A DNA stretch of 64,000 nucleotides from Halocatena salina (GTDB lineage Archaea > Halobacteriota > Halobacteria > Halobacteriales > Haloarculaceae), in assembly GCF_023115355.1 (NCBI RefSeq), contig NZ_CP096019.1:1984001-2048000 (forward strand), read 5' to 3'. Position 1 is the first letter of the stretch; every line of letters starts with the position of its first letter. Shown in pieces: positions 15,645 through 19,582 of this stretch. The notes below the pieces were generated by a model that saw only the letters and a list, made by a program, of their open reading frames with translations, was not told where the DNA came from and ran no database searches. The position numbers and the translations under genes were made by a program.

Positions 15645-17177
15645 TTACTCGTCTGTCGTGATGTCCGCCGAGAGTCCCTGTGCCATCTCGATGTCCGTGG
15701 AGTTGTTGAGCGTCCATGCGGTTCGTTCGGTGACCGCCTCGATGACTTCGCGCGCACTCGGGTAGCCGTTGCCCGATTTTTTCACGCCGCCGAAGGGAAG
15801 GTGCACTTCCGCGCCGATACACGGGAGATTGCCGTACGCCAGTCCGAGTTCGGCGTGATCTCGGTAGTAGTTGATTTGTCGGTAGTCCTCAGAGATGATC
15901 GATCCGGCTAATCCGTAGGGCGTGTCGTTTTGGATCTCGACGCCGCGCTCGATGTCACCGGAGTATTTCATGAGTGCGACGTGAGGTGCAAACACCTCTT
16001 CACGGATACACCGCGTCTCACCCGCGTCGTCGTAGTCGATCTCGTAGACGAACGGACCGACCCAGTTTCCACTCTCGTGTCCGTCGGGGACCTCCTCGTC
16101 GTCGAGCTCTGCCCGATCGACGAGCACGTTCGCACCCTCCTCGCGTGCGAGGGCGTTGTACTCGTGGAACCGTTCGACCTGTCGCTGTTCGATGAGCGGT
16201 CCCATGAACGTGTTCGGATCGAGCGGATCGCCGACGGCGACGCGTTCGGCCAGTTCTACGAACCGGTCTTTGAACTCGTCGTACACGTCCTCGTGGACGA
16301 TGAGTCGCTCGCTCGACACACACCGCTGGCCCGTCGTTTTGAACGAGGACATCACGGCCGAGTGGACGGCCACGTCGAGATCAGCTTCGTCAGTGATGAG
16401 CACCGCGTTTTTCCCGCCCATTTCACACGCACACGTCGTTCCCGGCCGGGAGGCGACCGTGCCGGCGATCTCGTGGCCCACCTCTGCGCTACCGGTGAAC
16501 AACACCGTATCCACGGTCGGAGAGTCGACGATCTCCGCACCGGCGTCGCCGTACCCTTGCACCATGTTGAACACGCCGTCGGGAATCCCCGTCGATTCGA
16601 ACAGCTCCGCGATGACCTGTCCACACAGCGGTGTCTGCTCGGCGGGCTTCCAGACGACGGTGTTGCCCTCCACGAGTGCGACGGCCATGTGCCAAAAGGG
16701 AATGGCCACCGGGAAGTTCCACGGCGTGATACAGCCGACGACGCCCACCGGCTTGCGACGCATGTAGGCATCCTTGCTCGGAATCTCGCTCGGAACCACG
16801 TCGCCGTGTGGGTGACGCGCGTCTCCAGCCGCCCATTCGACCATGTGAGCGGCCTCAACCACGTCGGCTTTCCCTTCCGAGATCTCCTTGCCACACTCCT
16901 CGGTCACGATCTCGCCGAGCTCTTCCGTCCGCTCTTTGAGTTCGTGGTAGATCTCCCAGAGATACTCCGCGCGGTCGATGTGGGAGAGATCACGCCACTC
17001 CTCGAACGCCTCTTCTGCCGCCGCGACGGCGCGCTCGACGTCAGTTTCCGTTCCCCGCTGGAACGTTCCGAGCGTCTCACCGCTCGCTGGGTTCGACGAT
17101 TCGAACGTCTCCTCACCCGCTCCCTCGACGAACTCGCCGTTGATGTAGTGTTCGTGTACTTCTACCTGTTGGCTCAT
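15645..17177 (-). CDS. NAD(P)-dependent aldehyde dehydrogenase
   Basis: A 510-residue aldehyde dehydrogenase oxidising an aldehyde to a carboxylic acid. The oxyanion and cofactor motif TPWNFPVAIPFW, the general base Glu in CACEMGGKNAV and the catalytic Cys in TTGQRCVSSERL are all present. The C-terminal LPFGGVKKSGNG is typical. Similarity is to the haloarchaeal group related to semialdehyde dehydrogenases; the substrate cannot be fixed. The frame is open upstream to 17357, but family members start at MSQQVEVHEHYINGEF, giving 17177. Confidence 0.93.
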   Translation of the reverse strand: MSQQVEVHEHYINGEFVEGAGEETFESSNPASGETLGTFQRGTETDVERAVAAAEEAFEEWRDLSHIDRAEYLWEIYHELKERTEELGEIVTEECGKEISEGKADVVEAAHMVEWAAGDARHPHGDVVPSEIPSKDAYMRRKPVGVVGCITPWNFPVAIPFWHMAVALVEGNTVVWKPAEQTPLCGQVIAELFESTGIPDGVFNMVQGYGDAGAEIVDSPTVDTVLFTGSAEVGHEIAGTVASRPGTTCACEMGGKNAVLITDEADLDVAVHSAVMSSFKTTGQRCVSSERLIVHEDVYDEFKDRFVELAERVAVGDPLDPNTFMGPLIEQRQVERFHEYNALAREEGANVLVDRAELDDEEVPDGHESGNWVGPFVYEIDYDDAGETRCIREEVFAPHVALMKYSGDIERGVEIQNDTPYGLAGSIISEDYRQINYYRDHAELGLAYGNLPCIGAEVHLPFGGVKKSGNGYPSAREVIEAVTERTAWTLNNSTDIEMAQGLSADITTDE

Positions 17178-17533
17178 GTGGCAATACTTGCACCACCCGG
17201 GTAAAAACTCCCCGGATGAAATTCGGGCGACGTCGTTTTCTCTCGTGTGATTCGTTCCCCGAAATACCCAAGTATCTCGGCTGGCGGGTGAGCGATCGCT
17301 GCTGGATCTGGCTGGTATCCTCACGGATGAAGAGGCTGCGAAAATGTGTGGGGCCATCGAAGAACAGGAATACCGAACACATGAGCGCCTCGATAACCGT
17401 GCCCGGTTGGTCTCGTAATCGACGATACAAACGTTTCCCTCACTATATTATGAAATAAATTGATGATATATTATTATCAAATCTGATGAAAAACCGGGAG
17501 GCTTAAAACACAGACATATCTATCGGGTCATGA
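17178..17533. other. Intergenic region with toxin-antitoxin remnant
   Basis: Between the divergent aldehyde dehydrogenase and the membrane glycosyltransferase. It contains the decayed antitoxin, followed directly by a short frame reading IDDTNVSLTIL before a stop at about 17451. That resembles the first strand of a VapC PIN-domain toxin, including its DTN motif. From 17440 to 17520 the DNA is strongly AT-rich and probably includes the promoter of the next gene. Confidence 0.4.
17216..17418 (+). pseudogene. Decayed VapB-type antitoxin (COG1753/DUF217-like), frameshifted
   Basis: The frame ending with TAA at 17416-17418 reads RLAGERSLLDLAGILTDEE and continues through a charged helix (AIEEQEYRTHERLDN). 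This is typical of the C-terminal half of small archaeal VapB antitoxins. Its N-terminal half is missing from that frame, which is stopped at 17248. In another frame just upstream, DSFPEIPKY (17249-17275) fits the segment that should come immediately before. Together they look like one antitoxin gene broken by a frameshift near 17272-17278. The family assignment is by pattern memory. Confidence 0.5.
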
Positions 17534-18928
17534 ATGGTTTGTGATTGGGAGATAATTCACGATCGAGCGACGAGTTCCGCTCGGATCGGTCGGTTCGTTC
17601 TTCGTCATCGGTACGTGATTCTCACGCTCGTCTATGTTGCCGTGCATCTATGGCTGTTCGTCACAGCACTCCCGATCACCGGCCGTCCCTCAGGGGCACC
17701 GGATCCGATCACGTTCGAACTCGGCGGCCAGTTCCTTGCTACTGGACGGATACCGTACGTCGATCTATTCGACATCAAGCCGCCACTCGTCCATCTTATT
17801 CCCGGTATTTTAGCGACGGGTATTCACTTCCTAGGCAGTCCTGGGTTCGGATATCTCGATGCGTTGGTCCTCCATACCGCGAGTGTACTCCTCACGTTAG
17901 GTATGACGCTAGTTGCGCTGTTTCTCATCACCGATCTCGTTGACGATATCACGGACGATCGGCTGGCTGCACTGGCCGCGGGATTCGTTCCACTGACGTG
18001 TCCTATTTTCTATATGGCTGGAATCGGTGGATTTCGTCCGAAAACCATGGCTCTGGTTGCTGGCTTGTTGTCCGTTCGCTGGCTCTCCCGCCAGCGGTGG
18101 CTGTGGGCAGGGCTTGCTGCTGCTTGTGCCCCTGCGTTGTGGCAGTTCGGTCTCGTTTTCCCTCTCTTTGCGGTCGGGATCGCTCACCGGAGTGGTCGTA
18201 CAGCCCTTAAACGCGTGCTCGCAGGGGGTGCCATCATCACGACCGTCACACTCGCTCCGTTTGCCCTCAATGGGATTCCAGCACTCCGTGCGATCCTCGT
18301 GGAAGTCGTGTTACTTCCGTTCGTGGTTCGACCGGTTCGAGAACCGACTGGGACTTTCTCACACGTCACTCGGTTGATCTCTTATCTCGGCTGGGAGGGT
18401 TTTTGTGTGCTGCTCGTCGGGACGGTTGGTGCGCTGCTGTATCCGATCCAGCGCCGGTTTCGAGCGAGCACCACGGAAGTGTCGGAACTGAGTGTTCCCG
18501 ACGTCGACGTTTGGGTCGCCATCGTAGTGGGCGTGTTTTCGATCCAAGCCATGGTCGTGGACGGTCGCGGCTTGACCGATTCCACGATGTGGGTCGGATT
18601 CGCTTCTGTCGGCGTCGGTTTGCTCATCGCGCAACTGAACAACCGTCGCTTCCGGCAGCTCTTCGTGGTGGGAATCGTCGTCATCGGAATCGTCGCGTTT
18701 TTGACTGACGCGGTTACTGCGTTCTACGGGTGGCGATGGGTGACACAACCGGAGGCGTCCTATAAACGCGTGGCAACGGTTTACTGGCACACCAGTTCTA
18801 TCGACACGTGCCATATCCGACGCGCCGGTGATGAACGGACGTTCGTCCGTTTGATGGGAGGTTCGTTGTCCGATCAGGTGTGTGGACAGTATTCGATCGA
18901 CAGCATGATTCGTTCACTCATCCCGTGA
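17534..18928 (+). CDS. GT39-like integral membrane glycosyltransferase
   Basis: A 464-residue polytopic membrane protein with about 10-12 helices. The first external loop (TFELGGQFLATGRIPYVDLF, then DIKPPL) matches the dolichyl-phosphate-sugar glycosyltransferase pattern of GT39/ArnT-like enzymes, in which a polyprenyl-linked sugar is transferred outside the cell. The C-terminal domain after the last helix is short, with three cysteines, and probably extracellular. Acceptor and sugar are unknown. It stands alone behind an AT-rich promoter region and is convergent with pcm. The start at 17534 seems late relative to the AT-rich box but is the only reasonable one. Confidence 0.75.
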   Translation: MVCDWEIIHDRATSSARIGRFVLRHRYVILTLVYVAVHLWLFVTALPITGRPSGAPDPITFELGGQFLATGRIPYVDLFDIKPPLVHLIPGILATGIHFLGSPGFGYLDALVLHTASVLLTLGMTLVALFLITDLVDDITDDRLAALAAGFVPLTCPIFYMAGIGGFRPKTMALVAGLLSVRWLSRQRWLWAGLAAACAPALWQFGLVFPLFAVGIAHRSGRTALKRVLAGGAIITTVTLAPFALNGIPALRAILVEVVLLPFVVRPVREPTGTFSHVTRLISYLGWEGFCVLLVGTVGALLYPIQRRFRASTTEVSELSVPDVDVWVAIVVGVFSIQAMVVDGRGLTDSTMWVGFASVGVGLLIAQLNNRRFRQLFVVGIVVIGIVAFLTDAVTAFYGWRWVTQPEASYKRVATVYWHTSSIDTCHIRRAGDERTFVRLMGGSLSDQVCGQYSIDSMIRSLIP

Positions 18929-18958
18929 GATTCGGGTTAGGTGGACAGCACTCACCCC

Positions 18959-19582
18959 TCATCCCCGCATCGGGACGAACTGGACGTAGCCGTCAGTCCT
19001 GCGAGTCAGCGATCCGTCCGATTCTTTCTCGGCGATGAGAAGCTGCTGTCGTCCCGTTCCAACCGGTGCGACGATACGCCCACCAGTAGCGATCTGTTCG
19101 ACGATCGGGTCTGGGAGTTCCGGGGTGGCGCACGTCAGATACGCAGCGTCGTAGGGCGCGTGTTCCGGCCAGCCGTCGTGTCCGTCGCCAGCTGTAACAG
19201 TGACGTCGTAGCCCAAGCGATCGAGCTGTCGTTGGGCCGACTCAGCGAGTTCAGGCTGAAACTCGACACTGTAGACGGTGGTATCGACGATCTCGGCGAC
19301 GACGGCGGCGTGATACCCACACCCCGTACCGATTTCGAGCACTCGGTCTTCCGGCGAGAGCGCCAATCGATCGGTCATGATGGCGACCATGTGTGGTGCA
19401 CTGATCGTCTGACCGTGGCCGATCGGGAGTGGCCGGTCGTGGTAGGCCTGCTGTGTGTGGCTGTCGGGAACGAACTCGTGGCGTGGCACAGCCCCAATAG
19501 CTTCGAGCACTGACTCTCGATGGATGCGTTCGCTTCGGGAGAGAACCTCCACGAGCCGTTCACGATCGTTTTCACGGGTCAT
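18959..19582 (-). CDS. pcm: Protein-L-isoaspartate O-methyltransferase
   Basis: A 207-residue enzyme that methylates isoaspartyl residues to start repair of damaged proteins. The family signature is complete: IGHGQTISAPHMVAIM (about 53-68), then motif I VLEIGTGCGYHAAVVAE, then a late VAPVGTGRQQLL. It begins nine bases after the zinc-finger gene ends, so the two share an operon. Length is normal for archaeal enzymes. Confidence 0.95.
   Translation of the reverse strand: MTRENDRERLVEVLSRSERIHRESVLEAIGAVPRHEFVPDSHTQQAYHDRPLPIGHGQTISAPHMVAIMTDRLALSPEDRVLEIGTGCGYHAAVVAEIVDTTVYSVEFQPELAESAQRQLDRLGYDVTVTAGDGHDGWPEHAPYDAAYLTCATPELPDPIVEQIATGGRIVAPVGTGRQQLLIAEKESDGSLTRRTDGYVQFVPMRG

Follow-up and report, generated by a model that had tools for sequence, protein, structure and literature searches.

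Introduction

VapBC is a type II toxin-antitoxin module in which the PIN-domain ribonuclease VapC is bound and inhibited by the antitoxin VapB, whose N-terminal DNA-binding part represses the operon. Orphan antitoxins, VapB included, are treated in sections of two papers (PMC7354431; PMC12654330) as what remains of degraded systems or as genes with a possible anti-addiction role. The stretch of DNA analyzed in this study, hereafter called the window, comprises 64,000 bases (contig C1, positions 1984001 to 2048000) of the 4.0-Mb genome of Halocatena salina (designated G000), and it contains what is very probably a dead vapBC locus. Literature searches on this locus returned general papers only.

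Organization of the locus

The features of the locus, in window coordinates, are as follows:

15645..17177, minus strand: aldehyde dehydrogenase gene, the left flank (PF00171, E = 1.8e-143; present in all 7 genomes compared from the genus)
17178..17226, minus strand: conserved block upstream of the aldehyde dehydrogenase gene, probably its promoter, aligned with G003, G004, and G005 and lying outside the relic
17249..17418, plus strand: VapB antitoxin remnant, frame-broken, N-terminal part absent, stop codon TAA at 17416 to 17418
17415..17453, plus strand: probable VapC start stub in the -4 register, start codon lost, ending in TGA
17440..17533, plus strand: AT-rich stretch, from its position probably the glycosyltransferase promoter (G+C 0.33 to 0.35 in 100-base windows)
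17534..18928, plus strand: glycosyltransferase ORF (Mannosyl_trans4; PF15971, E = 1.7e-25), absent from this site in the other six genomes of the genus compared
18959..19582, minus strand: ORF of the old right flank, which we take to be a protein-L-isoaspartate methyltransferase-like gene (pcm)

The remnant corresponds to the C-terminal two thirds of a VapB antitoxin. The three peptides read here by the initial annotation are all found at the places that it gave, i.e., DSFPEIPKY in one frame, RLAGERSLLDLAGILTDEE in a second, in which TAA ends the antitoxin at 17418, and IDDTNVSLTIL followed by TGA (17418 to 17453) in a third. The relic, drawn at that time from 17216 to 17460, is indeed VapB-like, but homology to VapB begins only at approximately 17249, and positions 17178 to 17226 belong to the conserved region upstream of the aldehyde dehydrogenase gene.

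Homologs of the antitoxin remnant and their partner genes

A stretch of 55 codons is open at 17251 to 17418, and a search of the genome contigs collection with the 55-residue fragment found at least 23 homologous loci. Among the matches listed, the best identity is 69% and the best E value, which is relative to candidate stretches, is 2e-10; these 23 matches come from haloarchaea (21), one member of Thermoplasmatota, and one proteobacterial MAG. In a search for the VapB family, 96 of 146 genomes gave a match at E values up to 1e-5, the relic being included with an E value of 1.2e-15. The likeness of the antitoxin part to VapB goes far beyond what chance would give, as judged from the fragment search and from the DNA identity with a congener at the same site, described below.

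The search against VapB and PIN profiles that had been suggested as a check speaks, if taken literally, against the relic: the fragment alone matches neither PF02697 nor a PIN profile, and a PF02697 search of the window's own genome found nothing at the relic site. The fragment is recognized because of its relatives and its synteny, not because of a profile score, and, lying below the Pfam cut-off, it is by this measure a remnant and not a member gene of the VapB family (PF02697). Two other profile matches of the fragment alone, to DUF892 (E = 0.049) and NF010251 (E = 0.14), were dismissed as weak and unrelated. PADLOC reported nothing for the fragment and nothing for the VapB of G005, described below.

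The genes following VapB in relatives were examined in 51 VapB frames, consisting of the 23 fragment matches and 28 of 29 loci from a second collection (L054 to L076 and L078 to L083; L077 is the window itself, and L083 was left out because its flank is cut). In 43 of these frames an ORF of 105 to 160 amino acids begins close to the stop codon of VapB; in the other 8 there is none. One of the 43, that at the G005 site (L054), is a thioesterase and not a VapC; its removal leaves a VapC-like ORF after VapB in 42 of the 51 relatives, or 37 distinct ones, as five loci occur in both collections. The offset of the putative VapC is +1 in 28, -4 in 11, and another value in 3. The window fragment is homologous to VapB genes whose partners are PIN toxins; one pair was tested by Pfam (VAPB_antitox, 59.6 bits; PIN, PF01850, 42.9 bits), and the remaining VapC assignments are based on the length, the position, and the start motif of the ORFs. 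In Halorubrum sp. SD626R (L020, 3905 to 4120), a VapB-like ORF lacks the middle of the protein (AYDRLAGERS) and no VapC-like ORF was found after it; this is possibly another decaying locus.

The same site in congeners

Seven genomes of the genus were compared, that of the window included. The C1 contigs of G002 and G003 have the same length (3,915,224 bases) and are identical over the 3624-base locus, so these two were counted once and the sample amounts to 6 distinct chromosomes. The pcm gene lies near the aldehyde dehydrogenase gene in all 7 genomes, at distances of 57 to 1781 bp. The largest gap is that of the window, which contains the relic and the glycosyltransferase ORF. The gap of G005 (986 bp) contains an open, full-length VapB ORF (PF02697, 55.1 bits against a cut-off of 27.9) and a 4HBT thioesterase ORF; this VapB, the only open copy at the site, is solitary, as it has no toxin. 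G003 has a gap of 427 bp with a broken VapB remnant that scores 27.0 bits, below the cut-off of 27.9, G004 has a gap of 154 bp with no VapB, and in G001 and G006 only 57 bp separate the two flanking genes. An intact vapBC pair, for which a comparison of synteny had been proposed, was found at this exact site in none of the 7 genomes; what the comparison did yield is the open VapB of G005. The reading of the locus as a vapBC relic is upheld by this copy, together with the VapC-like ORF after VapB in most of the relatives.

When the two flanking genes of the 6 chromosomes were placed in an unrooted tree, G000 grouped with G004 (support 99), and G000, G004, and G005 were split from G003, G001, and G006 (support 98). 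VapB sequence is present on either side of this split. Most simply, VapB would be old at the site and would have been lost in G004, whereas G001 and G006 would, according to where the root lies, either have lost VapB or have lacked it from the start.

How the antitoxin frame is broken

In a one-sequence comparison, the relic is 80% identical to the open vapB of G005 over 17249 to 17426 at the nucleotide level (E = 3e-42). Relative to G005, the window lacks the DNA for approximately the first 26 VapB residues and the stretch preceding them, and a net surplus of 5 bases close to where the alignment begins breaks the frame, which is why the DSF and RLAGERS peptides are in different frames. Over 46 codons the two sequences have 6, 4, and 12 differences at the first, second, and third codon positions, respectively. 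The NG86 method gives dN = 0.10 and dS = 0.45 for the relic, and for the flanks of the same genome pair it gives dS values of 0.52 (aldehyde dehydrogenase) and 0.74 (pcm). The relic dS, near that of the aldehyde dehydrogenase gene, fits descent in place with late decay, but 46 codons are few. The YN00 values (dN = 0.14, dS = 0.25) are a weaker sign of past selection and count against the explanation that we prefer.

That the fragment is a short protein still in use, or an element regulating its neighbors, is extremely improbable in spite of the 55-codon open stretch and of an 80-residue ORF in the DSFPEIPKY frame (ATG at 17216, to 17458), as the VapB frame contains no started ORF of at least 40 amino acids, the 80-residue ORF is for the most part out of the VapB frame and its stretch has a best family match of E = 0.091, the segment is absent from G004, and the frame is broken relative to G005.

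The toxin stub

What remains of a toxin is at most 12 codons in the 4-base-overlap register (VIDDTNVSLTIL, stop). The junction reads GTGATCGTCGAT in G005, which then diverges, and GTAATCGACGATACAAACGTT in the window, with a stop at 17453. In relatives with a 4-base VapB/VapC overlap, the junction is ATGA or GTGA; the GTGA of G005 corresponds to GTAA in the window, and thus the toxin start codon has been lost while the antitoxin stop persists as TAA. The order of antitoxin then toxin with a tight overlap, as first claimed, is found with the -4 register in relatives, but here it is represented by the 12-codon stub only.

The stub had been likened to the start of a VapC PIN domain. We scored 11 window residues against a VapC start profile made from 18 distinct starts (from the 42 VapC), and the score is 3.8 bits, with five residues (the 2nd, 5th, 7th, 9th, and 10th) fitting badly. 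A score as high is reached by 83 of the 127,934 33-mers of the window (0.065%; both strands, the stub included) and by 22 of 20,000 shuffles, i.e., the stub fits better than 99.9% of the window 33-mers. The register was taken from the relatives, and two or three others would have been acceptable; after correction for these, the chance of such a match is, as a rough estimate, some 0.2 to 0.3%. The evidence is moderate, and the stub is probably a VapC start; its modest score and its length of 12 codons count against the toxin part of the explanation. It is unlikely that the antitoxin fragment is real and IDDTNVSLTIL a chance match with no toxin sequence left, a reading that concerns the stub only and is compatible with a dead vapBC. 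The stub is short, its five ill-fitting residues count for such a coincidence, and the corresponding stretch of G005 scores -12.4, agreeing in its first residues only; against it, so few of the window 33-mers score as high, and the stub does so in the register known from relatives.

No PIN domain by which a VapC could be recognized is present at the site, where the stub has only 12 codons: PF01850 gave no match there at E values up to 1e-5 in the 7 genomes of the genus, that of the window included. Searching the gap sequences with VapC proteins by tblastn found no convincing remnant; the best 25 matches (E = 0.006 to 0.20) were rejected as chance or as pieces of other genes, and the best of all, in G005, runs into the thioesterase start. 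Should the stub be genuine, more of VapC survives in the window than in G005, and the deletions in the two genomes may have arisen independently.

This lack of a PIN match in any of the 7 genomes, and the fact that the only open copy (G005) stands alone, would also be expected if the site had never held a toxin and a solitary VapB-like regulator gene had decayed in the window. We consider this quite improbable: in G005, the stop/start overlap GTGATC (V/M-I-V-D) lies where relatives with the -4 register start VapC, and in the window the VIDDTNV stub stands at that same position.

Neighboring genes and AT-rich DNA

The initial annotation placed the locus between two housekeeping genes, as a former mobile or addictive insertion followed by very AT-rich DNA. 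Of its two neighbors, the glycosyltransferase gene is not an old flank, the conserved pair in the genus being pcm and the aldehyde dehydrogenase gene. The former insertion is half supported. The flanks 57 bp apart in 2 of the 6 distinct congeneric chromosomes would suit it, but no insertion-type flanking repeat brackets the relic within 17150 to 19000, where the repeats (3 direct families and 3 inverted pairs) are short and two-copy and several of them link the relic with the glycosyltransferase ORF. The low G+C is real (0.35 at 17400 to 17499 and 0.33 at 17450 to 17549), but since this DNA is directly upstream of the glycosyltransferase ORF, the simpler reading is that it is probably the promoter of that gene.

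The glycosyltransferase has matches in 3 of the 7 genomes; those in the two other genomes, which share one chromosome, are at 33% and are located elsewhere. G005 has the thioesterase ORF in its place, for which G000 has no match at E values up to 1e-10. This gap, bounded by pcm and the aldehyde dehydrogenase gene, seems to be a place of gene gain and loss.

Other damaged vapBC loci in the genus

A second damaged vapBC was observed in the window's genome (L084; C1, 1532000 to 1534200, approximately 720 to 1128, near 1532720 to 1533130). Its VapB frame (52.2 bits) has a stop just before the conserved part and is followed by an AT-rich run and then by a VapC of which the final 27 residues alone are left (E = 2.6e-7). 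In G005, another VapB ORF (L085; C1, 2367600 to 2369800, approximately 776 to 1000; 51.2 bits) is followed by nothing that matches VapC at E = 1e-3. As far as such matches tell, VapB with its toxin lost or shortened recurs in the genus.

Discussion

The finding is real but ordinary: the window carries the homologous, frame-broken end of an antitoxin gene at a conserved position, with its toxin missing and a probable toxin stub. In an ancestor of part of the genus, a vapBC pair, reading rightward, would once have stood in the gap flanked by pcm and the aldehyde dehydrogenase gene, where, when intact, it would have worked as an ordinary VapBC module with an active toxin. VapC would then have been deleted and VapB freed from selection; after this loss, an open vapB would have stayed in G005, deletion and frameshift would have led to decay in G003 and the window, and in G004, grouped with the window's lineage, vapB would have disappeared. 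The second wreck of the same gene, in G003, counts for this explanation. In the window, no product is expected because the promoter side, the N-terminus, the frame, and the toxin start codon have been lost, and the relic most likely has no function.

A single syntenic site thus displays side by side an open orphan, two different wrecks, a VapB-free state, and near-empty states. As a small and well-situated case, it shows how the death of a toxin-antitoxin locus may proceed, with the toxin going first and the antitoxin next, in what is otherwise ordinary genome decay, and how short remnants below a profile cut-off can be recognized through relatives and synteny. A more speculative and rather unlikely reading is that VapC has repeatedly been lost first in the genus and VapB long kept solitary, in which case the G005 orphan may protect against related incoming toxins or regulate.

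Compared with VapBC of the haloarchaeal type (type II; PF02697 and PF01850), the window shares the C-terminal sequence of VapB and, probably, the gene order and the 4-base overlap register, whereas it lacks the N-terminus, the frame, the start codon of the toxin, and nearly all of the toxin itself. With the orphan antitoxins as described in section 4.2 of PMC7354431 and section 2.3 of PMC12654330, the locus has in common a VapB without VapC, and the G005 copy is such an open orphan; unlike the orphans of those sections, the one in the window is itself dead.
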